A stretch of DNA of 64,000 nt from the NCBI GenBank assembly GCA_015067175.1, contig SVMX01000001.1, positions 186,001-250,000 on the forward strand. Direction: 5' to 3'. The DNA comes from Oscillospiraceae bacterium (GTDB lineage: Bacteria; Bacillota; Clostridia; Oscillospirales; Ruminococcaceae). Within the stretch, counting starts at the first letter, position 1. Each line of letters opens with the position of its first letter. The position numbers and the translations under genes were made by a program. Shown one piece after another: positions 5,224 to 23,493 of this stretch. Below the pieces are notes generated by a model. It saw only the letters and a program-made list of their open reading frames with translations, did not search any database and had not been told where the DNA came from.

Positions 5224-6567
5224 TTATTCAGCGGAGTTGATAGCAAGCGTATAGGTTACTATATCACCGTTCTCAACTATGGGAAATACAAATGTATCTC
5301 CGCCAACAATTCCAATAGAGCCGGTATATGCATTTCCGCCCTTAATTATGTCAGCGATTTTTTCAAACTGCTCGTTGATAAGATACATACCATCGTTGTC
5401 ATACACCAGCGCAACACCGTTTATAAACGGAGTTCCCGCTTCATAGTACGCATCGTACTCACCATCGTTCACATCGTAGTAACCGCCGCTCATGCTTCCG
5501 AAATTGGGAATCCAGAAATACGCGGAATCATTTGCGTAATATTCACTGTCGAATTTATAGCCGAAAACGTACTCGCCCGTAAGAACATTGATATACTTGC
5601 GTGTGTTCCGGTAACTTTCATCGCACATATTGATGCACATAAGACCATCATTGAAATATGTTCCGTCGGACAGCGGCATTATCGATACATACATCAAACT
5701 GAAGAAGTAGCTGCCGATATCTATCTCGCTTACAACAGTGCCGTCAGTCTTGTATGTAGTCAGCTTTTCGGTATCGGAGCTATATGTAACGATATACTCA
5801 CCGCCTAAAAAAGCAGTCCAATCATTTGCACTGAAATCATGATCTATTGCATATTCAGTGATATTGCCGCTTGTGTCCATGACGGTAACCTTGCCGTTTT
5901 CGCTCTTGCAGGCATAGCCATCGGTAAAGCCGCCGTAGTAAGGCAAATCGATCTTGTTTCCATCAAAATCATAGTAGCACTCATTTTTATGATCGTTTAT
6001 TATATCGCCATAAAAAGCAACGCCGTATGCATCGCCGACAGTGGCGATATCGCCGTTTTTATCTGCAAGAATCAGTTCCTTGCTCTCATTGTAATATGTA
6101 TACAATCTGCCATCAATGCAGTTCATCACCTTTAATCCCTTTTCAAGCTTGTTAAAATCAGAATCAAGGTAGCAAGTCTGATAACCGTTCAAATTATCGT
6201 AAGCAGTATAAAAATCAGAATACATCTGACCATTTACTGAAACCGTCATATCCTTACACGCTTTATTAAGTGTATAATCCACCTTTGTAACAGCGCTGGG
6301 TGCAGGCACTTCATAGCATTTGTCCTCCTCAGCGGGCGGTTCTTCCTCAGCCACGGAGGTCGTTGTATCATCAGGAGCGCTGCTCTCCTCAGACACAGTG
6401 CTTTCGGGTGCGGAGGAGCTTTCTTCGACCTTTGATGTACCAGACGTTGTGGCAGATGTTGTCGGTTCGCTGCTATCGGGAGCAGTGGTGCTTTCGTTGT
6501 TGTTTCCGCACGCTGTCAGCGACAGTATCATTGCCGCTAAAAGAATGGTTATTGTGAGTTTTTTCAT
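5224..6567 (-). CDS. Lipoprotein with WG-like repeats
   Basis: 447 residues, fourth and last gene of the sigma-factor operon. A signal peptide with lipobox LTAC puts the acylated Cys near residue 20. A Ser/Thr/Glu/Pro-rich linker of about 60 residues follows, then an exported domain rich in Tyr, Gly and Asp. The C-terminal part (GGYYDVNDGEYD, INGVALVYDNDGMYLINEQ) aligns with the C-termini of the lipoprotein at 7247-8638 and of the sigma-factor fusion at 8684-10690, and resembles WG beta-repeats. No catalytic motif is seen; a surface sensor or binding role is inferred. The ATG at 6567 has a GGAAA ribosome site (AAAGGAAAACTAAAA). Confidence 0.8.
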   Translation of the reverse strand: MKKLTITILLAAMILSLTACGNNNESTTAPDSSEPTTSATTSGTSKVEESSSAPESTVSEESSAPDDTTTSVAEEEPPAEEDKCYEVPAPSAVTKVDYTLNKACKDMTVSVNGQMYSDFYTAYDNLNGYQTCYLDSDFNKLEKGLKVMNCIDGRLYTYYNESKELILADKNGDIATVGDAYGVAFYGDIINDHKNECYYDFDGNKIDLPYYGGFTDGYACKSENGKVTVMDTSGNITEYAIDHDFSANDWTAFLGGEYIVTYSSDTEKLTTYKTDGTVVSEIDIGSYFFSLMYVSIMPLSDGTYFNDGLMCINMCDESYRNTRKYINVLTGEYVFGYKFDSEYYANDSAYFWIPNFGSMSGGYYDVNDGEYDAYYEAGTPFINGVALVYDNDGMYLINEQFEKIADIIKGGNAYTGSIGIVGGDTFVFPIVENGDIVTYTLAINSAE

Positions 6568-6590: not shown

Positions 6591-7241
6591 TTATTTAAAA
6601 GCTCTTTCAGCTAGTGAAAATTCGGCAGAAATCGCCTTAACCTCGTCTTTAAAATATTCCTCGGTGGAGTCGCTTGTGGTTTTGGATAGCCGTATACTTA
6701 TCTCCTCGGCAGGGTTTGAAACGCCGAGGTATTCCATATCAAACGGGATTGTCAGCCCACGAATGTCGCCCAGCCTCACCTGCTTGTACGGCAGAAGCTC
6801 CGTAAAGGTGAAGTAGGGGTTGCCGCAAAGCTCCGTTTTCGTGAGCTTTTCAATGCTTTTTCGTACCGCCGTAAGCTGTGCCAAAGGAAGCGGCTCACCT
6901 GAGATATGGCGGTAGTATTGAAGCTGATAGAAGCTCAGCGGCTCGAATTTTATTTCGTCAAGCTCGTCGCCGTAAAGTCGCCTGAACAACCCGACATACA
7001 GGTCGTCGCTGTGCATATCAAGGAAATAGTCTATTCTTGCCGCCTCAGGATGAGCTGTCCTGATGTGCAGGATACGCTCGCCAAATGCTGTGAATATCTC
7101 TTCCGTCAGTGCTGCGGTATCAAAGCCGAGAAGCTCCGTGTAATGTATAATATTCACAAATTCATTATTTTCACCCAGCAGGAGAGTACAGACTTCCGTA
7201 TTCGGGCAGTCAAGCCGCCTTCGTGGTGTTTTAGGCTCCAT
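6591..7241 (-). CDS. Conserved-looking cytoplasmic protein of unknown function
   Basis: 216 residues, no signal peptide or membrane segment, acidic and rich in aromatic residues (FYQLQYYRHISGEPLPL). I do not recognise a family. It starts 5 bp after the stop of the upstream lipoprotein and ends 23 bp before the next lipoprotein, so it is co-transcribed with both and with the membrane-bound sigma factor. The ribosome site is weak, so translation is probably coupled to the upstream gene. A cytoplasmic protein between surface lipoproteins could act with the sigma-factor half inside the cell, but this is speculation. Confidence 0.7.
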   Translation of the reverse strand: MEPKTPRRRLDCPNTEVCTLLLGENNEFVNIIHYTELLGFDTAALTEEIFTAFGERILHIRTAHPEAARIDYFLDMHSDDLYVGLFRRLYGDELDEIKFEPLSFYQLQYYRHISGEPLPLAQLTAVRKSIEKLTKTELCGNPYFTFTELLPYKQVRLGDIRGLTIPFDMEYLGVSNPAEEISIRLSKTTSDSTEEYFKDEVKAISAEFSLAERAFK

Positions 7242-7246
7242 AGGCT

Positions 7247-8638
7247 TTATTCTGCCGCAGGGTAGTTCACAGGGTAGAACTGCTCTGTATCAGCAAGGTA
7301 CAGCAGACCGTCATAATGCGTTGCGTCTGTTGCTGCGATATCATCAGTTACAGCCTCTAGATCCTCATTTATAAAGTGACCCTTGCCGTTCTCAATAACA
7401 AATGCATAGCCATTATAGAAGAATGTAGCCTTGTCATACAATGCAGCTTCGCCACTTTCCATAGCATAGTAGCCGCTCTTTTCGCCGTCGGAGATAAAAA
7501 TATACTTATCATTACAGCCTGAACGATATGCTGTTGTAAGACCATCAAGAAGGACGGTTACACCTGAATCGCTTATATTTACAACTTGCCAAACGTCATC
7601 CTTTTTCAGCGTGTAGATTCCGATTTCGCTGTCTACGAAATCGGGGCCCTCGTATATAGTGTCCAGCTCGTAGAATTTATCGCTTGTCATATCGTACAGA
7701 GCACTGAATGAATCATATGAGCCGCCATCAGGTCTAATGCCAACATGAAGATTCAAAATGTTATTATTCTTGATTACATTCTCAAGATCGCATTCTCCGA
7801 ACTGTTCTCTGAGTTTGCAATCGCCACCGTATTCATATAACTTGGTCATATTTCCCTGATTGTCAACTGAATACAGATACATTAAACCATGTCTGCCGAC
7901 AGGGAAAAGTGCATATAACAAGGCGTAGTCATTTCTGTATTTCATATAATTGAAGCGGGGTGTATACTCGTCGGGTTCGGGGAACATTTCATGCTCATCA
8001 AGCGTACATAACACCTTTCCTGTGGCGGTATCTGTAAAGGTGAATTTGTGCATATTGGTATCTTCGAAGAATGCCGGACTAAAATATGTGCCCGATACCT
8101 CTTTTGTCACCGTTATTCCTTCGTAATAATCAATAATGTTTTCGTGTGCTACATTGCCCTGCTTGTCAATAACGCAGGTAGCACCGTCTATGTCGACAAC
8201 TGCATATCCGTCTGCGTCAAAGCCTTTTGATATAGAGCTATATAAAGTATCGTTAATCGCTGTTCCGTTGATATCTGCAAGATAATAGGTGCTGTCTGCT
8301 TCGTTGTACATTATTAAGGTATCGCCATAAGCGTCCCATAGCATATCTCTTGTAAAAGAAGTTGCCGCACTCAGCGTGACATCACCTGTTATGGCTGTGG
8401 GGTCAGCCTGTACAGGATCTTCCTCAACCACAGGTGCGGTCGTGGTGGTCGCCTCGGTTGAAGTAGTTGTTGCCGCAGTAGTTGTGGCGGAGGTCGTGGT
8501 CGCAGAGGTAGAAGTCACCTCCGGCTCTGAGGGTGCGCTAACAGAGCTGTTGTCAGATGCAGCTGTGTCCTGCTGACCGCAGCCCGCAAGAGATAATATC
8601 ATCGCAGCCGCAAGTGCAAGTGAAGCAAATTTTTTCAT
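7247..8638 (-). CDS. Lipoprotein paralogous to the sigma-factor ectodomain
   Basis: 463 residues. The signal peptide ends in lipobox SLAGC, followed by a very Thr/Ala/Ser-rich linker (about residues 28-70), then a beta-rich exported domain. The C-terminal 100 residues match the last 100 of the sigma-factor fusion closely: both have VLLDGLT, SG, GYY, then VIE-G-G-F and E-L--V-D at the same spacing. The start ATG at 8638 has AGGAAGG nine bases upstream. It follows the sigma-factor gene by 45 bp, so the two are probably made together. A ligand-binding or cell-envelope sensor role is inferred from the shared domain; no enzyme motif is visible. Confidence 0.82.
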   Translation of the reverse strand: MKKFASLALAAAMILSLAGCGQQDTAASDNSSVSAPSEPEVTSTSATTTSATTTAATTTSTEATTTTAPVVEEDPVQADPTAITGDVTLSAATSFTRDMLWDAYGDTLIMYNEADSTYYLADINGTAINDTLYSSISKGFDADGYAVVDIDGATCVIDKQGNVAHENIIDYYEGITVTKEVSGTYFSPAFFEDTNMHKFTFTDTATGKVLCTLDEHEMFPEPDEYTPRFNYMKYRNDYALLYALFPVGRHGLMYLYSVDNQGNMTKLYEYGGDCKLREQFGECDLENVIKNNNILNLHVGIRPDGGSYDSFSALYDMTSDKFYELDTIYEGPDFVDSEIGIYTLKKDDVWQVVNISDSGVTVLLDGLTTAYRSGCNDKYIFISDGEKSGYYAMESGEAALYDKATFFYNGYAFVIENGKGHFINEDLEAVTDDIAATDATHYDGLLYLADTEQFYPVNYPAAE

Positions 8639-8683: not shown

Positions 8684-10690
8684 TTATTCTTTTTCAATCT
8701 CAAAGGAATATATCATTCCCTTGCTTTCAAGGTAAATATAGCGTGAATTCTTGTATATCACAGCAAAGGTTTCCGCTTCTTTATCGGAGACACATCTTAA
8801 ACTCTCGTCAACGAAATACCCCATACCATCTTCTATGACATAAGAGTAGCCATCACTGAAATATGTGGTGCAGTCGAAATAGCTTATCCTGCCTGTATCA
8901 ATATTGTAATAGCCATTGCCTTTGTCGTCGGTTATCAAAAGATATCTGTCACTGCCCGAAGCTTCAGCCTTTGTAAGACCGTCAAGCAACACATTGAGAG
9001 ATAGATCACAGACTGAATATGTATTTCCGTCATAAAGCAGAATAGTATCTTTATCTCTGTCAGCGTATTCTATTGAGACATATTTTCCTTCCGAAACAAC
9101 AAAAGTATCATTTGCTATATCATAAAGAACGTATTCAATATCCTCGCCTTGAAGTTCCATAAGCACGAAGCCCTCACAGCTTACAGAGGCGCTGTTTATC
9201 GTGTGATTGGAGAACTCCTCTTTTGCTCTGCCTACGCCGCTTAAGATCTTGTTTTCAGACTGATAGATAACGGTAGGAGCACCCTTTCTGTCAACCGCAA
9301 TAAGATACTCTCCGCTGATACGATCATTTTCACTGTCGTAAGTTCCGATAAAGGAATATTCTCCGTCCGTATAGCTGAAATATCTCGACTTTGGAAAAGA
9401 CCCCTTGGTCAGAACATCCTCAGGATAATAATCCCTTTCTTGGAACTCGAAAACGGCATTCATATTATCGTCCTCATAGCGGTAGTAATATGTGACAGGA
9501 TCTGTTTGTATATCTGCGTATACTTGAACAGATAGATCTTCAAGCTTGTCCACAGTGAATAGATTATATGAGCCGCCGTAGCCCTCACTCTGATATGACA
9601 GAATATAATACTGATCGTCTTCACCTATTACAAGAGCGTCGTTATTTGAGTTAAATCCTATAAATTCGGTTAAGGAAATTCCGTTGGAGATATCAATCTG
9701 TTCTCCGTCCTGTCCGGAGAATGCATAAGTGCCGTCCTCATTCTGTATGAGTGCGTTCACTCCCAACATAGCCGCAATATTTTCGTGATCTAAAATAGCC
9801 TCGTTGTTGGTTAGTACGAAAAGATCATCGGACAGGTTGTCTATCTCCTCAATAAGGTTGTCGATATCAACCTCCACTCTGCCGTTATCCACGATGGAAA
9901 CACCCATGCGATCGGTGTTATCCTGATTAAGGTAATGCACACCGACAGCTATTCCTGTACCTGCAACAGTGATTCCTATACACGCCGCGGCTATTTTAGC
10001 TGCTCCTGTATGCGTCACTGAGGAAGCACCACCTGCGGCAGTTGATAGACCTGCTGTTGGGTGAGCACCTTTTTTCAATGCGTGAAGCAATCCCGTAACG
10101 GCAGGTATGCCGTACAGTTTCGTGCCTTTCTTGGCAAGCGCTTCAAGCTCCTTTTTGATATGTTTTCTGGCATAGTTCAGGCGGCTCTTGACTGTATTCT
10201 GATTCGTTTCGGTAACCTGAGCGATACGCTCGATCGGCATCTCTTTATAATAAAAAAGCTTTACCGCCTGTTGCTGTACTTCGGGAAGTCCGTTTATGAT
10301 CTGAGCAATAATACGCTCTGTTTCTTTTTGCTCGACTATCTGCTCGGGCTGAGGATTATCAGCTTCCAAGGAAGCGGCGTTGATAAGCTGCTCCTCCTGC
10401 TCATCGCTCTCGAAAAGCTCGGGGCGTTTCTTTGAGAGGTGATTTTTGCTGAGATTTACCGCAATGACTTTCAGCCACTTCAGGAACGCCTTGTCGTCCT
10501 TTAACTTGGGCAGCTTTTTAAATGCATTTATGTAGGTATCCTGCACGATATCCTCTGCATCTGCTGGGTCTCCCACGATTTTGAGCGCAGTAAAGTAGAC
10601 CGACCTGTTGGTCAGCCTGTATATTTCATCAAAAGCAGCTATATCGCCGTTTTTTGCTTGTTTTACAGCTTCAATAAGCCCTGTGTTCAT
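8684..10690 (-). CDS. ECF-like sigma factor fused to a membrane anchor and extracytoplasmic domain
   Basis: 668 residues. Residues 1-190 form an ECF-type sigma factor: region 2 (EDIVQDTYINAFKKLPKLK, WLKVIAVNLSKNHL) and region 4 with a helix-turn-helix (LPEVQQQAVKLFYYKEMPIE, then RIAQVTETNQNTVKSRL). A single hydrophobic segment lies near residues 230-252 (AAACIGITVAGTGIAVGVHY). The remaining 410 residues carry no sigma motif but match the neighbouring lipoproteins, so they are predicted to be outside the cell. The reading frame is continuous, so this is one polypeptide. Such a layout would keep the sigma factor at the membrane until a signal or proteolysis frees it. No anti-sigma gene is adjacent; the fused tail may take that role. 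First gene of the operon. Confidence 0.9.
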   Translation of the reverse strand: MNTGLIEAVKQAKNGDIAAFDEIYRLTNRSVYFTALKIVGDPADAEDIVQDTYINAFKKLPKLKDDKAFLKWLKVIAVNLSKNHLSKKRPELFESDEQEEQLINAASLEADNPQPEQIVEQKETERIIAQIINGLPEVQQQAVKLFYYKEMPIERIAQVTETNQNTVKSRLNYARKHIKKELEALAKKGTKLYGIPAVTGLLHALKKGAHPTAGLSTAAGGASSVTHTGAAKIAAACIGITVAGTGIAVGVHYLNQDNTDRMGVSIVDNGRVEVDIDNLIEEIDNLSDDLFVLTNNEAILDHENIAAMLGVNALIQNEDGTYAFSGQDGEQIDISNGISLTEFIGFNSNNDALVIGEDDQYYILSYQSEGYGGSYNLFTVDKLEDLSVQVYADIQTDPVTYYYRYEDDNMNAVFEFQERDYYPEDVLTKGSFPKSRYFSYTDGEYSFIGTYDSENDRISGEYLIAVDRKGAPTVIYQSENKILSGVGRAKEEFSNHTINSASVSCEGFVLMELQGEDIEYVLYDIANDTFVVSEGKYVSIEYADRDKDTILLYDGNTYSVCDLSLNVLLDGLTKAEASGSDRYLLITDDKGNGYYNIDTGRISYFDCTTYFSDGYSYVIEDGMGYFVDESLRCVSDKEAETFAVIYKNSRYIYLESKGMIYSFEIEKE

Positions 10691-10732: not shown

Positions 10733-10761
10733 ATTTTATATTAAAGCACGTTATAAGTCAA
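10733..10761 (-). promoter_or_regulatory. Promoter of the sigma/lipoprotein operon
   Basis: TTGACT (10756-10761 on minus), a 17-bp spacer and TAAAAT (10733-10738), 42 bp ahead of the start codon. It looks like a housekeeping promoter; no second, ECF-type promoter was recognised. Confidence 0.6.
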
Positions 10762-11321: not shown

Positions 11322-11358
11322 GGACAAGTCTGATTTGTCCGAGGTTTTAATTTTTACA
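11322..11358 (+). terminator. Terminator of the XRE gene
   Basis: GGACAA (11322-11327) pairs with TTGTCC (11335-11340), followed after four bases by TTTTAATTTTT. Short stem; moderate support. Confidence 0.5.
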
Positions 11359-12503: not shown

Positions 12504-13670
12504 TCAACTGCCAGACCTGTAAATCTCGGACAGCTTATCCATACACTCGCGCTTGTGGCTTGGGAGAGCGTGTCCGTATTTGTTCAGCGTGGTGCTTGGC
12601 TGAGCATGACCCAGCAGCTTTGACAGCACATAGATATCTACGCCGCTTTCAAGGGCTCTTGTGGCAAATGTGTGCCGCAGCGTGTGGATATGCGCGTCCC
12701 CAATGCCAGCCCTTGAAGCAACGTTATGGAATATCGTTTCAAAATACCGTGGCTCTACATGACAGAAATTCCGTCCTGTGAAGATAAAATCTGTATCCTC
12801 GTGAGCAACACCAGCTCGTTCCTTTAGCTGCATCTGTCTTTCTTTGTACCTTACAAGCTCGTCATACAGCTTATCGAACAGTGGTATCTCCCTGTCGGAG
12901 CAGCTGGACTTCGTGCTGCCGATAAGTATCTCGGTCTTAGGCTTGCCCTCTGCTTCGTTAGCCACATGAAGCCTGTTGATAGCCCGTCGCACTGTTATTG
13001 TGCGCTTATCCTCGTCAAAATCACGCCACTGCAGCCCCAGAAGCTCGCCCTTTCGCAAGCCCGTATAGACATCGAGAATTATTCCAAAGCTCGCTTCGTG
13101 CGGGTAATGGCGAGCCTCAAACACCAGCGCGTCCTGCTCCTCCTGCGACAATACCCGTTCCTCGGTTTTGCGCAGCTTGGGGAGCTGCACGAACTCAATA
13201 AAGTTCTTGGTTATTAGATCGTTAATGACCGCTTGCTGCATAGCACTATGGAGCATATTCTTGATATTGCGCACCGACTTCTGCGACAGACCGCTTTCCT
13301 CCAGAAGCCGCACCAGATACTCCTGAAATACCCGCACCGACAGCTTTTTAAGCGGAACTCCACCTATATCAGGCTTCACACGAAGCCGAATGTTTGTCTC
13401 ATAATTGATATAGGTGGCGCGCTTAACCCGTGGCTTTGCATAGTATTTCAGCCAGTAATCCAGCCAATCACCCAACGACTGCTCGCGGCTGTCTAAATCC
13501 AGTCCCTGCTCAATAAAGGACAGCACCTCCTTCAGTTTCTGACGAGCCTCCTGCTGTGTTTTTCCGTAAACCGCCTTACGCTTACCCTGATAGGTGTACT
13601 GACCCGCCCATGTTCCGCTTTTAAGCTGAATGATAGAGCCTTCACCATTACTGCGCCTTTTTTGCGCCAT
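12504..13670 (-). CDS. Tyrosine recombinase (integrase 1)
   Basis: 388 residues, a full-length phage/transposon-type integrase. The N-terminus (about 1-60, GSIIQLKSGTWAGQYTYQGK) is an AP2-like arm-binding domain. A SAM-like core-binding domain follows (about 65-165), then the catalytic domain with Arg in TGLRKGELLGL, His329 and Arg332 (HTLRHT), His355 (LLGHA) and nucleophile Tyr365 (LNKYGHA). The start is the ATG at 13670, preceded by AAAGGAGG; an earlier in-frame ATG at 13688 overlaps that ribosome site. It is the gene nearest the attachment repeat, the usual place for the integrase that acts at a tRNA site, and has its own promoter at the end of the second recombinase gene. Confidence 0.95.
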   Translation of the reverse strand: MAQKRRSNGEGSIIQLKSGTWAGQYTYQGKRKAVYGKTQQEARQKLKEVLSFIEQGLDLDSREQSLGDWLDYWLKYYAKPRVKRATYINYETNIRLRVKPDIGGVPLKKLSVRVFQEYLVRLLEESGLSQKSVRNIKNMLHSAMQQAVINDLITKNFIEFVQLPKLRKTEERVLSQEEQDALVFEARHYPHEASFGIILDVYTGLRKGELLGLQWRDFDEDKRTITVRRAINRLHVANEAEGKPKTEILIGSTKSSCSDREIPLFDKLYDELVRYKERQMQLKERAGVAHEDTDFIFTGRNFCHVEPRYFETIFHNVASRAGIGDAHIHTLRHTFATRALESGVDIYVLSKLLGHAQPSTTLNKYGHALPSHKRECMDKLSEIYRSGS

Positions 13671-13699
13671 AATAAACCCTCCTTTCAAAAGGTGGGTTT

Positions 13700-13731: not shown

Positions 13732-15015
13732 TCAATCGGAGCTTTTTACAATATATCTGCGGGTCATGCTCACGCTGGCATGACCCAGCTGCGCCTGTAC
13801 TGCTTTTATATCATGATTTATGTTATACTCAAGTGTTGCGTAGGTATTACGCAGCTCATGCACCTTAATACACTTCACACCAGCGTTATTTGCAGCCTTT
13901 TTAAGTATTGCTCTCACATAGTCAGGATCAAATACAGTACCTGAGGAATTGACAAAGCAATAATCGTTTTCTGCAGCTGCGTTACTATCCCGATACTGTC
14001 TTAATTTAGCCGAAAGCTCCTCTGGGATAGACACCCAACGGTATGAACTGCTTGTTTTCAGCGAGGAGCTGCACTCCACTATCGTCTTTGAAGCATCACC
14101 ACTCTCCTTGTAATCAGGATTTGAACGCCTTACTACCGCACGCTGGATATGTACCTTATTCTGTTCAAAATCGATATCGGAAAATCTCAATCCCAGAGCC
14201 TCGCCGCGCCTTACACCAGACCGCAGGATATATTCCAACAGCAGACCCTCGGACTCACCGACACAATACCCGCTTTCGATCAGCTTTCTGCGATCTTCCT
14301 CTGTATATACCTCAGGCTCTTTAACTCGCATACCACTGGCTACTAGCTCATCAATGGAAAGCTTTGGGAAAGTTACCCTCCGCATTTGCTCGTCCTCGGC
14401 AAATTCCTCCTTCGCTCTCTCGATAACCTGACTGCAGAATTGAAGTATATTCTTAACGGTCTTAGGTGCTAAAATACCCAGCAGCTCCTCCGCAAACGTA
14501 GTGAAATTTTTAGAAGTTAAGACATTGATAGGTGTCATACCGATGGAGTGAGTTTCGATATGATTGCTGATGAAACCCTTGCAGTCCTGTACTCGGTCAT
14601 AATTTACGGTGGCTCTGCCAGCCTTATGGCTTCTGATCTCACATCTCTTTTTCAGATACTTGTCCGTGTAAAGGCTACAGTAATCAGCGAAAGGCATATT
14701 GCCGCTTATAATACCCTCAAACGGACTATCCCCATTTATGAGCTTATCGAAATACGCTACTGCCTCCACGGGAGTAAGCTCGCCAGCCTCCAGCATATCA
14801 TAAAACCTATCGCGCATAACAATACGCTCTGCGAGATAATTCTGCGCCGCTGCCTCCGTAGCAAAGGTATTCACCAGAGCCTTAACACCCCAGACCGAAT
14901 ACTCGGCTTTATAGCCGCTGCCGTTACGGCTGATGCTGCCCTTGCTGCGGCGGCACTTCTTCTGACCACTGCAATATTTATTTATAAGCATATCGGACAT
15001 TTTAAAGGTAGGCAT
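13732..15015 (-). CDS. Tyrosine recombinase (integrase 2)
   Basis: 427 residues, diverged from integrase 1. Catalytic residues are Arg in SGVRRGEALGL, His386 and Arg389 (HELRNT, where the family usually has HxLRHT), His412 (QLGHAS) and Tyr421 (TRRYIVK) only six residues from the C-terminus. The His-to-Asn change lies beside, not at, the catalytic Arg, so activity is plausible. The start ATG overlaps the stop of the D12-like gene by one base (TAATG), so both are translated from one message. Two unrelated tyrosine recombinases in one small element suggest either separate integration and excision roles or a composite origin. Confidence 0.92.
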   Translation of the reverse strand: MPTFKMSDMLINKYCSGQKKCRRSKGSISRNGSGYKAEYSVWGVKALVNTFATEAAAQNYLAERIVMRDRFYDMLEAGELTPVEAVAYFDKLINGDSPFEGIISGNMPFADYCSLYTDKYLKKRCEIRSHKAGRATVNYDRVQDCKGFISNHIETHSIGMTPINVLTSKNFTTFAEELLGILAPKTVKNILQFCSQVIERAKEEFAEDEQMRRVTFPKLSIDELVASGMRVKEPEVYTEEDRRKLIESGYCVGESEGLLLEYILRSGVRRGEALGLRFSDIDFEQNKVHIQRAVVRRSNPDYKESGDASKTIVECSSSLKTSSSYRWVSIPEELSAKLRQYRDSNAAAENDYCFVNSSGTVFDPDYVRAILKKAANNAGVKCIKVHELRNTYATLEYNINHDIKAVQAQLGHASVSMTRRYIVKSSD

Positions 15016-17679: not shown

Positions 17680-19968
17680 TTAATTAGATACAACAGTACC
17701 ACCAGAAAAATTAGGATGTGTATCCTCACTAAAACTCGTATTATAAATTTCTTGTATGGTTTCATAAGAATATGTTTTGCCTTTGTATGTAGCATTCAAT
17801 AGGTTAGTACAGCCATTGAATGCTTCGCCGATTGTAGTCACACTATCAGGGATAACAATAGATGTGAGACTAGTGCAATCGCCGAATGCATAATCACCTA
17901 ATATGATAACACTTTCAGGAATAGTAACAGAGACGAGACTGGTACAACCACGAAATGCAAAACTGCCAATTCCAGTAACGCTATCAGGGATAACTATAGA
18001 TATGAGATTAGCGCAGTCTTCAAATGCACCTCCCCAGATTTCGGTAACGCTGTCAGGAATACTAACTGAGATAAGATTTTCGCATCCATAGAAAGTACCA
18101 GTGTAGATTACTTCCACATTGTTAGGTATGACAATTGAAGTAAGAGAGGTGCAGCCTCTGAATGCATCCTCGCCTATTGAAATAATACTATCGGGTAGGA
18201 TGACTTCCGTTAATTCCTCGCAATATTCAAATGCTTGTTCATCTATATACTTTATACCATTAGGAACGATGCATTTACCTTTATAGTTTTCATAACACTT
18301 CTTAAATGTATCACCCAGAATGTAAATGCCATCAGATGAGTTTATAATATCCGCTATATCATAATCAAAATCCTTATATGTATATACTACATCATTGAAG
18401 CTAATATTGATCATTTCATCATACAAGCCTTTAAAGCTTCTAATAAGATCACGTGCAAGATCATCAGCATCTTCCCACTCGTCTGAATCCAAATCGGAAA
18501 AATAGCTGATAGCGTAATTGTTACCTGAACAATACCCACAATCTTTAAAAGCACGGTCTCCAATATAACCGATATTATTCGGTATTACAATATCGCTCAA
18601 GCTAATACAGCCGCTAAAAGCTGAATACCCAATCGCCGTTACACTTTCAGGTATAATTACCTCAGATAAACTACAACAATTATCGAATGCATAATCACCA
18701 ATTGAATTTACATTGTTTGGTATATTGATTGATGAAAGTTTATAGCAGTATGCAAAGGCGTGGTCGCTGATAAATTCAACTTTTGGTGGTATTGCTACCG
18801 AAGATAAATTGTAACAACGCACAAACGCACTATCACCAATATACGACATCTCTTTAGGAAACACCACCGAAGTTAAATTATAGCAATCAGAAAAAGCTCC
18901 ATCCCCAATAGCTGAAACTGTATTTGGAATATTTACTTCTCCATTAATGGCTTCATTGCAATCTATCAATACCCCATTCTCAATGGTGAGCATATTTAAT
19001 TTATCAAATATAGCAAAAAGCTCTTGGAGCGTATGGGTAGCATCTAGATAATTCACTTCTTCAAGGCTAGTGCAGCCCGAAAAAGCTTGCTCACTTACCA
19101 ACGCTACTACGCTATCGGGAATATCTATCGACGTAATTTTGCTGCAATTATAAAATGCTTTGCCGCCTATTGTGTGTACTCCATCAGGAATCGTAAATCT
19201 GCCCTCATGACTTGTTGAACAACCCAGCAAAACACCATCTTCAATTCGATAACCGTCAGGATATCGGATTTCATTGTATAAATCCTCAATATTCTCATAA
19301 GAATATGTCTTTCCTCTGTAGCAGATATTAGTAAGATTTATGCATCCATCAAATACCCCATCAGGCATATCGGTTACTTCGCTTGAAATATACACTGTTT
19401 CAAGAATGGTAGCATTTTTATAAACATGATCAGCCATCATATCCCACCGAAACCCTTCATGGTTTTTACTGGATAAGAAAGCCATGTCTCTGGGATAATT
19501 GATATGTTTGATTGTCGAAGTATTGATAGCTGCATACTTAACTGTGTCTGGCATCACTATTTGTGTAAGCTTGCTGTTTTTCAAATCGATTGCTACAACA
19601 GGCTCTCCATCAATGGTATCGGGTATGTTTACTCTGAGAGATTGACCAGTATAGCCTGTTATCACAATACCGACACACTCTGTGTCATAAGTATATTCAA
19701 AGCTTTCAACAGGGGTTTCTTCGATTACAGGTAAGACATCCCATACGTCAGGATATTTTGTAGCAGCATCTTCGGTAATTGAATTATTTCCGTAATTCAG
19801 AGCTTGATCTTCCTCATCACTCTCGTCATCCCTGTCCTCGGTTTCGTACTCTTCCGTATCGTCGCGGCGGCTATCCGAACTGCCGCTGCAACCGCTAAAA
19901 GCACTAACAGCTATCACCGCCGCAAGAATACCCGCTAGGCATCTTTTGAGCTTATACTGGCTTGACAT
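17680..19968 (-). CDS. BspA-type leucine-rich repeat lipoprotein
   Basis: 762 residues. The signal peptide ends in SAFSGC, so Cys is lipidated after cleavage; an acidic Asp/Glu linker follows. The body is built of LRR_5 (BspA/TpLRR) repeats of about 23 residues with the pattern AF-GCTSL-SI-IPDSV--IG, in two blocks interrupted around 480-560. A recurring GKTYSYE(T/N)I segment ends two blocks. Such proteins sit on the outer face of the membrane and bind host or microbial surface ligands. The start is the ATG at 19968 with GGAAGGG seven bases upstream; the frame is open further upstream, but that part overlaps the promoter. It is cargo of the integrative element and divergent from an XRE regulator. 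Confidence 0.92.
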   Translation of the reverse strand: MSSQYKLKRCLAGILAAVIAVSAFSGCSGSSDSRRDDTEEYETEDRDDESDEEDQALNYGNNSITEDAATKYPDVWDVLPVIEETPVESFEYTYDTECVGIVITGYTGQSLRVNIPDTIDGEPVVAIDLKNSKLTQIVMPDTVKYAAINTSTIKHINYPRDMAFLSSKNHEGFRWDMMADHVYKNATILETVYISSEVTDMPDGVFDGCINLTNICYRGKTYSYENIEDLYNEIRYPDGYRIEDGVLLGCSTSHEGRFTIPDGVHTIGGKAFYNCSKITSIDIPDSVVALVSEQAFSGCTSLEEVNYLDATHTLQELFAIFDKLNMLTIENGVLIDCNEAINGEVNIPNTVSAIGDGAFSDCYNLTSVVFPKEMSYIGDSAFVRCYNLSSVAIPPKVEFISDHAFAYCYKLSSINIPNNVNSIGDYAFDNCCSLSEVIIPESVTAIGYSAFSGCISLSDIVIPNNIGYIGDRAFKDCGYCSGNNYAISYFSDLDSDEWEDADDLARDLIRSFKGLYDEMINISFNDVVYTYKDFDYDIADIINSSDGIYILGDTFKKCYENYKGKCIVPNGIKYIDEQAFEYCEELTEVILPDSIISIGEDAFRGCTSLTSIVIPNNVEVIYTGTFYGCENLISVSIPDSVTEIWGGAFEDCANLISIVIPDSVTGIGSFAFRGCTSLVSVTIPESVIILGDYAFGDCTSLTSIVIPDSVTTIGEAFNGCTNLLNATYKGKTYSYETIQEIYNTSFSEDTHPNFSGGTVVSN

Positions 19969-20029
19969 TGTAATACCCTTCCTTTTTGCATAACGCATTA
20001 TTTGACAGGAAAATACCCTATCAGCACTA

Positions 20030-20058
20030 ATTATACTGGATATGCCAGTAAAAGTCAA
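20030..20058 (-). promoter_or_regulatory. LRR lipoprotein promoter with internal operator
   Basis: TTGACT (20053-20058 on minus), a 17-bp spacer and TATAAT (20030-20035). The spacer is a palindrome, TACTGG-N5-CCAGTA (20034-20050), reaching into the -10 box: a repressor bound here would block polymerase. The divergent XRE protein 50 bp away is the obvious candidate. Confidence 0.75.
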
Positions 20059-22371: not shown

Positions 22372-22668
22372 TCAGCGGACGATAATTCCGCCGTAGGGGA
22401 TAGTGCTTGTGCCTTTAGGTGTTTTCCTCAGCAGCGTTCTCGTTCTGTCGTTGTACGCTGCCAGCACCTGTGAGGGGACGATCATCGAATTCTGCTCCAT
22501 ATCCAGCTTTGAAACTGGCGTATAGAGGTGACCGCTGCCTATATCCGAAACGATCCAGAATACTACGTCCGAGGTTTTGGTGACTGGCACACCATCGCCG
22601 TTGATAACGATCTGCTGCAGCTTGCATCCGTTAGAGCCAAGCTGAATACCCAAAAATGTAAATCCCAT
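22372..22668 (-). CDS. Small unknown protein coupled to the resolvase
   Basis: 98 residues, beta-rich, Gly and Thr-rich, no signal peptide or membrane segment (MGFTFLGIQLGSNGCKLQQI at the start). Family not recognised. The start ATG overlaps the stop of the resolvase gene by one base (TAATG) and has AAAGGAGG inside that gene, so it is translated with the resolvase. A role in resolution or regulation of the element is inferred from position only. Confidence 0.65.
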   Translation of the reverse strand: MGFTFLGIQLGSNGCKLQQIVINGDGVPVTKTSDVVFWIVSDIGSGHLYTPVSKLDMEQNSMIVPSQVLAAYNDRTRTLLRKTPKGTSTIPYGGIIVR

Positions 22669-23288
22669 TACTGTTCCTCCTTTACAAGTCGATAAAATGT
22701 GTGTTTAGTAATACCCAGCCGCCGCATAGCCTCGACTGCTGTAATCTGCTGCTCACGCCATAGGGCGCATACCTCTGAAAAACCCTCGGGCTTCGGAATG
22801 CGCTTCCTGCCCAGCTTCACGCCGCGAGTCTTCGCCGCATCAATACCCTGTCGCTGTCGCTCACGGATAGACAGGCGCTCCTTTTCGCTGACATAGCTGA
22901 GTATCTGCAGCACTAGATCTGCGACAAACCGCTTATCGAGGTTACCGTCAGCGCATCGGGTGTCCAGCAGTGGCATATCCAGAATCACGATATCGCACTG
23001 AAGCTCTGTTGTGATATACTGCCACCATCTGCGTATCTCCTCGTAGTTGCGCCCCAGCCTGTCCAACGACACTACAACAAGGCAGTCCCCAGCTCGCAGC
23101 AGCGGAGCTGTCCTGTCAGTACCCACCAGCGACATGAACACGGGTCTGTTGAAATCCTTGCCCGACTGCTGCTCCTGCAGTATCTGTCTTTCCTCGATAC
23201 CGTAATCACTCAGCGCGGTTACCTGCCTGTCTAAATTCTGACTGGTGCTGCTGACACGGGCATAGCCCCACATTTTTGCGTTTTCCAT
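22668..23288 (-). CDS. Serine recombinase (resolvase/invertase)
   Basis: 206 residues, the usual size of small Tn3/Hin-type serine recombinases. The catalytic domain has the nucleophile Ser13 in GYARVSS, then DRLGRNYEEI (the conserved LDRLgR motif) and a long E helix region. The C-terminal helix-turn-helix is seen in VEAMRRLGITKHTFYRLVKE. These enzymes resolve co-integrates or invert DNA. The ATG at 23288 has GGAGG eight bases upstream; the open frame further upstream lies over the promoter. It heads a two-gene operon. Confidence 0.93.
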   Translation of the reverse strand: MENAKMWGYARVSSTSQNLDRQVTALSDYGIEERQILQEQQSGKDFNRPVFMSLVGTDRTAPLLRAGDCLVVVSLDRLGRNYEEIRRWWQYITTELQCDIVILDMPLLDTRCADGNLDKRFVADLVLQILSYVSEKERLSIRERQRQGIDAAKTRGVKLGRKRIPKPEGFSEVCALWREQQITAVEAMRRLGITKHTFYRLVKEEQ

Positions 23289-23310
23289 AATCATCACCTC
23301 CGTGGTTGGC

Positions 23311-23339
23311 ATAGTAACTCTTTTCTCCGAAAAAGTCAA
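23311..23339 (-). promoter_or_regulatory. Resolvase promoter with AGAGTTA motif
   Basis: TTGACT (23334-23339 on minus), a 17-bp spacer and TACTAT (23311-23316); AGAGTTA joins spacer and -10 as in two other promoters of the element. Confidence 0.6.
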
Positions 23340-23493
23340 GCGGAAAATGTACACCTTTTCGGACACCCCAAATCCGCATAACAGAGCCGTTTCCGTGTGG
23401 ATGGAATAGCCGCTGAATGACTTATCGGACAGGCGGAATGCAAACTGTCGTTTTCGGAGAGGTTTTACAGGTTCAGCCTGTAACGGTAGAAAT

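Follow-up and report, generated by a model that had tools for sequence, protein, structure and literature searches.

A 668-aa protein encoded on the minus strand of the window (the whole stretch of DNA analysed, 64,000 nucleotides) joins the two regions of an ECF sigma factor to a likely membrane helix and a long, predicted outside part. The original prediction had described one uninterrupted frame with sigma regions 2 and 4, a single membrane segment and an outside domain, and had left the strand unstated; the frame, running from 10690 to 8684, confirms this layout. The long outside part stands as well, with 417 residues in place of the 410 first given. On the same strand follow genes for a 463-aa lipoprotein, a 216-aa protein and a 447-aa lipoprotein, separated by gaps of 45, 5, and 23 bp, and the four genes form a probable operon. 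The lipoprotein labels rest on lipobox-like N-termini. The features are listed below in the direction of reading.

10733..10761, minus strand: sigma-A-like promoter, TTGACT-17-TAAAAT, 42 bp upstream of the receptor's start codon; score 10/12, the best in the region
8684..10690, minus strand: gene of the one-chain sigma receptor, 668 aa, ATG start, stop codon included, without internal stop
10424..10618, minus strand: sigma region 2 (aa 25-89), Pfam PF04542 Sigma70_r2, E 1.8e-12
10157..10315, minus strand: sigma region 4 (aa 126-178), Pfam PF08281 Sigma70_r4_2, E 1.8e-12
9995..10141, minus strand: linker (aa 184-232), 49 aa, with a KLYG-hydrophobic helix and without the HxxxCxxC zinc anti-sigma motif
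9938..9994, minus strand: likely single membrane helix (aa 233-251), small-residue-rich (63% G/A/S/T/C), hydropathy 2.06
8687..9937, minus strand: exported part (aa 252-668), 417 aa, its C-terminal half probably WG-repeat-like; kinship to the downstream lipoprotein
7247..8638, minus strand: lipoprotein, 463 aa, 45 bp downstream of the sigma receptor and kin to its exported part
6591..7241, minus strand: 216-aa protein without Pfam match, adjoining a lipoprotein also in the same-genus genome G005 (82% identity)
5224..6567, minus strand: second lipoprotein, 447 aa, with distant kinship in its C-terminal part

Pfam searches of six neighbouring proteins returned no anti-sigma family, in agreement with the earlier claim that no anti-sigma gene lies nearby; three of the six score above cut-off with other domains (histidine kinase, DegV, HTH) and three have none. 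Two tyrosine integrases in tandem (12504-13688 and 13732-15015) and a resolvase (22668-23366) suggest an integrated mobile element, with its start some 1.8 kb upstream of the receptor gene. Among plasmid records, 484 have a match to the query and none reaches 80% query coverage. A 792-aa BspA-type leucine-rich protein with a lipobox-like start is encoded at 17680-20058 (minus strand), and its domain is of the kind matched by 14 of 57 fused relatives.

Both sigma regions exceed the curated Pfam cut-offs, and the protein scores 103.7 bits with NCBIfam sigma70-ECF (cut-off 42.9). Regions 2 and 4 are present and regions 1.1 and 3 are unmatched, as expected of ECF (group IV) sigma factors. Residues 7-183 align with SigW, whose structure is solved (E 1.1e-19), the sigma domain matches sigma-E (E 3.3e-16), and the family-wide invariant residues of regions 2 and 4 are retained. 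In the AlphaFold2 model, residues 1-190 have block pLDDT values of 82 to 98, save for the loop 91-120 (55 to 66). The sigma domain looks intact by these comparisons; the SigW alignment and the retained invariant residues speak against a domain lacking DNA- and polymerase-binding residues, the finding on which the original prediction was to be given up.

A hydropathy scan of the protein finds one membrane segment, at residues 233-251 (mean 2.06), and no second. The helix is not seen in the AlphaFold2 model (block pLDDT 27-28), so that the evidence for an anchor consists of hydropathy, charge and recurrence; full-chain structure prediction, proposed earlier as a check, thus gives confident values for most of residues 1-190 and leaves the membrane segment unmodelled. 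Across 57 family members the mean net charge is +2.35 before the helix and -1.09 after it, with the higher charge before the helix in 46 of the 57 and equal values in eight, which favours a predicted topology with the sigma domain inside and the long part outside. Small residues (G/A/S/T/C) make up 52% of the helix in the fused family vs. 33% in 280 control helices.

The linker between region 4 and the membrane has a median length of 71 aa over the 57 members (automatic helix choice, which gives L187 and L188, both retained in the set, an implausible linker of 8-9 aa). In the window protein it measures 49 aa by the hydropathy-scan helix and 41 aa by the automatic choice. In 55 of the 57 members a hydrophobic 11-mer is present no more than about 40 residues beyond region 4, and a strict pattern of the form KLY..PFL..LF is found in 34 of them; in the window protein the AlphaFold2 model has a linker helix at 196-207 (block pLDDT 60 falling to 49). 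This hydrophobic stretch may hold the sigma domain down at rest. A zinc anti-sigma domain within the chain was rejected, HxxxCxxC being absent between sigma domain and membrane in 57 of 57 members, and the first cysteine of the window protein does not occur before residue 237. Class I anti-sigma domains (ASDI) comprise about 100 aa (101 +/- 33) in the accessible text of PMC7406223, and the window linker of 49 or 41 aa is too short to count as one; for other members, with longer linkers, the anti-sigma check consisted of the zinc motif and Pfam.

No Pfam family scores above cut-off in the exported part, and no solved structure is related to it at E 1. The AlphaFold2 model of this part is mostly beta, with a pLDDT of 39, for which reason it was not used for a fold search. 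The exported part is 30% identical to the first downstream lipoprotein over 200 residues (E 1.6e-19) and matches the second weakly (profile E 5e-4); the probable operon would thus encode three related exported domains, one of them on a sigma factor. A profile of the outside part (A2) has matches in five of 148 family genomes, own genome included, and one of these matches is L232, a protein with 11 WG repeats (E 1.1e-4); on the strength of this match the C-terminal half is probably a WG-like beta domain. In the genus, at an E limit of 1e-15, the outside part matches just its own lipoprotein and one in G005, and the window sigma domain occurs together with its outside part in its own genome alone among 43 genomes. 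The 216-aa protein (6591-7241) and the first lipoprotein (7247-8638) have counterparts in G005 (L150), at 82% identity and about 46% over 346 residues, respectively; by this comparison, the surface lipoprotein diverges much more than the adjoining 216-aa protein.

The same domain order recurs in other genomes at genus, family and class level. A set of 57 proteins with the order sigma domain, helix, outside part was assembled from loci selected, not exhaustively, from match lists (58 frames met the fusion rule, of which L191, with its long stretches of undetermined bases, is excluded, and a few members start at the edge of a contig); all of the named ones are from Clostridia. In the 43 genus genomes, 17 fused-type matches were found in seven genomes, some ending at contig ends. 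A profile of 14 fused members gave 35 matches in 15 of 148 family genomes, and in 34 of them the frame stays open for at least 354 aa; 12 fused-family matches fall in G187, the most in one genome, where several fused genes precede genes for proteins of 667 to 2226 aa that look secreted. In 291 class genomes there are at least 38 matches in at least 33 genomes, of which at least 16, in at least 11 genomes, extend through the linker with a frame of at least 396 aa, and the remaining ones mostly end with the sigma domain (frames of about 200 aa); up to eight candidates per genome were scored, so these counts are lower bounds. Among the best 80 of 394 loci in the genome collection, 14 are fused (L065-L073, L075-L077, L079, L085), all Clostridia by title, and the rest, where complete, are ECFs from many phyla without a membrane segment after the sigma domain.

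Recurrence in so many genomes led to the rejection of a chance or assembly fusion, and the absence of the fusion from all relatives, another finding that would have spoken against the original prediction, is not observed. Together with Pfam and hydropathy, the recurrence supports the view that sensor, anchor and sigma factor are one chain. G147 was rejected as an ortholog; its identity to the window sigma domain is 35% over 146 residues and its high score is a profile effect. In a quick tree of the fused proteins and 89 unfused ECFs, the fused label needs four changes vs. a mean of 45 in shuffles, and well-supported branches force just one change between fused and unfused. Fused sigma domains cluster together in this tree; the unfused set was chosen by likeness to the family, so that the tree indicates clustering and is not proof of a single origin.

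The outside domains of the 57 members are varied. Among the families listed, Pfam matches include BspA leucine-rich repeats (14), SdrD_B (3), CarboxypepD_reg (3), DUF5050 (2), RHS (2), Ig-like Big_13 (2), MacB/FtsX permease domains (2), WG repeats (1), and a lipocalin-like domain (1); one protein may match several families, and 12 families beyond those listed were matched. Two neighbours in the same genome, L030 and L033 (L176a and L176b), have closely paired sigma domains (98% SH-aLRT) and outside parts with no mutual match at E 1e-3 among the matches listed, a pattern that reads as an exchange of outside domains behind a constant sigma engine. The MacB_PCD (2) and FtsX (2) permease domains are likely borne by the proteins of L192 and L205, long sister proteins encoded at L192:1924-5379 and L205:3939-7364. 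In L192 the sigma frame is directly followed by a gene whose start resembles that of an ABC ATPase. Fusion of a sigma factor with part of a transporter would yield a transporter-sensor in a single chain.

Among the 58 fused frames there are 37 cases with a next gene on the same strand within 400 bp, and 22 of these 37 genes look exported, vs. 49 of 276 controls taken from the remaining genes of those loci (Fisher p 2.4e-7). Exported proteins were called by a coarse hydropathy rule that produces obvious false positives and was applied equally to the controls. The 37 cases are not independent, since several fused genes share a genome (G187 accounts for at least five of the 22 exported cases). 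Among 12 unfused ECFs, all but one are followed by a same-strand gene within 400 bp, which in ten cases starts within 50 bp, and five of these 11 genes count as exported by the same rule; an exported neighbour is therefore not peculiar to the fused type. The contrast of exported neighbours is clear with ordinary genes and not with unfused ECFs. By inspection, several genes that follow unfused ECFs resemble anti-sigma genes, including membrane-bound ones. Pfam searches of 49 proteins downstream of fused genes, including three from the window, matched 65 families, and the 25 listed first include no anti-sigma family.

In L146, L182, L183, L192, and L206, small ORFs of 42-50 aa directly precede the fused gene, and in the first three they lie between an ECF-like promoter and the sigma start. 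They possibly encode a small partner or inhibitor. A scan for such ORFs returned a mixed list (16 of 55 upstream regions), the others being less convincing, and none at the window gene.

Self-control is suggested by an upstream motif. AACCT-N15-YGTC occurs on the coding strand in 10 of 56 regions upstream of fused genes and in none at 16 other spacings (N 8 to 24), which indicates that several fused sigma factors probably direct transcription of their own genes. The other strand has no match at N=15 and a single one at N=16. The AACYT variant of the motif is found in 11 of the 56 regions; the ten bearers of the strict form are divided between the genus of the window (five) and other groups (five). 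A second form, TATCYY-N16-YGTY, occurs in six regions of 56, with none on the other strand at N16 and single matches at five other spacings. Either form is present in 17 upstream regions and neither in 39. A matrix built from the ten sites recovers six of 46 held-out regions at p <= 0.01, with about 0.5 expected.

The family self-promoter is absent at the window gene (held-out p 0.86). The 64-kb window has two sites in all (N 14-16), no more than chance by a rough estimate, including an N15 match at 11346 on the minus strand, 656 bp off. The sigma-A-like promoter listed above comes from a consensus scan with 18 sites in the region vs. 14.4 (sd 4.0) in shuffles, i.e., without overall excess. 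In L148 and L149, strong sigma-A-like promoters (TTGACA, 17 bp, TATACT) are seen by eye before the lipoprotein genes downstream of the fused gene, and those neighbours therefore have at least one promoter that is not of ECF type. No genome-wide excess of the motif was found: a looser pattern gave seven sites in the own genome vs. nine for the reversed pattern, and the strict motif nine sites vs. eight reversed in the genus, two of the nine preceding fused genes. A regulon based on the strict motif was rejected for this lack of excess, and regulation beyond self-control is not indicated.

The favoured explanation, which has about an even chance of being right, is a one-chain ECF sigma receptor that is held at the membrane and freed upon a signal by an M50 protease. 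The outside, WG-repeat-like beta domain would meet a ligand or a surface partner. At rest, anchor and linker would hold the sigma domain at the membrane, away from RNA polymerase. The signal would lead to cutting of the outside part, after which an M50 protease of RseP/RasP type would cleave the membrane helix with its many small residues, and transcription would be started by the sigma domain thus released. The sequence itself shows the one-chain layout, an intact-looking sigma domain, a Clostridia family with varied outsides, frequent exported neighbours, promoter sites for self-control in some relatives and an M50 gene in the own genome. Under this scheme we infer topology, ligand, resting inhibition, cleavage, and the own operon as target. 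Proteolytic release is favoured by the small-residue helices, by the presence of an M50 gene and by the topology and release of IutY; the own genome encodes M50 proteases (E 1.5e-63 and a second frame). Several results count against it: no PrsW-type protease was found in the own genome (about 84% complete, 2.14 Mb), and a cleavage site was not identified either; the same is true of the unmodelled membrane helix, the exported neighbours shared with unfused ECFs, the pairing of sigma domain and outside part in a single genus genome, the 39 upstream regions with neither promoter form, the missing self-promoter at the window gene and the motif without genome-wide enrichment.

The protein could instead work from the membrane without proteolysis, outside binding altering dimerisation or freeing the sigma domain so that RNA polymerase is recruited there. 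ToxR/CadC-type one-component regulators are the model for such a mode of action. The small-residue helix would suit helix packing, the family linkers are long (median 71 aa), and the lack of a detected PrsW-type protease points the same way. Small-residue helices would equally suit M50 substrates, however, and the window linker has just 49 aa. Moreover, proteolysis frees the one-chain IutY and has been proposed to free ECF52, as far as the accessible text of the sources goes, which leaves activity from the membrane rather unlikely.

A different view of the resting state places the inhibitor in the linker, where the helix after region 4 would be a short, class II-like anti-sigma element that masks the sigma domain until the outside part pulls it away or a cut removes it. 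The recurrence of the hydrophobic 11-mer (55 of 57) and of the KLY..PFL..LF form (34 of 57) speaks for it, but model confidence in the window protein is low (60 falling to 49) and the helix might equally lie on the membrane surface; the proposal is improbable, if worth keeping in mind. Far less credible is a degenerate sigma domain, i.e., a mere surface protein with a relic cytoplasmic tail. A gene without the family self-promoter and with no ortholog seen in 43 genus genomes would fit such a relic, but both regions pass curated cut-offs, the SigW alignment covers residues 7-183, and the invariant family residues are retained.

More broadly, and tentatively, the Clostridia may possess a large class of sigma receptors that are self-contained and lack any anti-sigma domain, in which a conserved engine of sigma domain, linker and helix carries swapped outside domains (leucine-rich, SdrD-like, RHS, WG, even MacB/FtsX permease). 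Each receptor gene would neighbour that of the exported protein which the receptor serves, and many receptors would act on their own promoter. The outside part in the window would be a paralog of the neighbouring lipoprotein, so that both could compete for one ligand and provide feedback on surface composition. In a one-chain receptor, an outside signal could act on transcription without a separate inhibitor protein. A Clostridia family with readable self-promoters in some members would give a testable code, outside domain in and promoter out, and could reveal which surface signals Clostridia of gut and rumen detect, as well as being a source of modular sensor parts.

The latest ECF classification reportedly includes further groups with C-terminal membrane segments. 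In the accessible text of the sources cited here, C-terminal extensions are spread over many groups of that classification (PMC8103513), membrane-spanning ones are described for Actinobacteria and IutY, and IutY is the only membrane-fused ECF with a worked-out activation (PMC8999054). IutY of Pseudomonas putida (ECF243) is a sigma/anti-sigma hybrid freed by Prc and RseP, and it resembles the window protein in having a cytosolic ECF sigma domain, a single membrane segment and an exported C-terminal domain in one chain under outside control (PMC5411451). Its outside is an anti-sigma domain working with an outer-membrane receptor of a Gram-negative bacterium (PMC5411451). The window protein likewise combines sigma domain, single helix and exported domain in one chain (topology predicted). 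Unlike IutY, it is from Clostridia and has a WG-like, lipoprotein-related outside, and its family has many other outsides. Exported anti-sigma domains of the IutY type are FecR-like; in place of one, the window protein has an exported part with no Pfam family above cut-off and with WG-like lipoprotein kinship.

Among Actinobacteria, ECF52 (SCO4117) and ECF48/ECF53 share the ECF sigma domain, membrane helix and long outside part (PMC5826349, PMC8999054). SCO4117 comprises sigma domain, zinc finger, membrane helix, and a carbohydrate-binding domain (PMC5826349), and proteolytic release and a putative self-promoter are proposed for ECF52 (PMC5826349, PMC8999054). All three groups carry a zinc-finger domain, whereas HxxxCxxC is found in 0 of 57 Clostridia members and the 49-aa window linker holds no zinc anti-sigma domain between sigma domain and membrane. 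SigI/RsgI of Clostridium thermocellum is alike in its outside sensor, one membrane helix, RseP cut and paralogs with different outsides, but sigma and sensor are two proteins there and SigI belongs to a separate sigma group (Group V) (PMC12203970). The canonical pair SigW/RsiW has a similar sigma domain and a separate anti-sigma protein, in contrast to the window, where six neighbours include no anti-sigma family. Literature searches listed no paper, by title or abstract, on a Clostridia family of one-chain sigma receptors, and the main ECF reclassification may cover such proteins. One-chain sigma receptors as such are already known from IutY and ECF52, as presented in these sources, and the Clostridia family with its varied outsides is a variant thereof.
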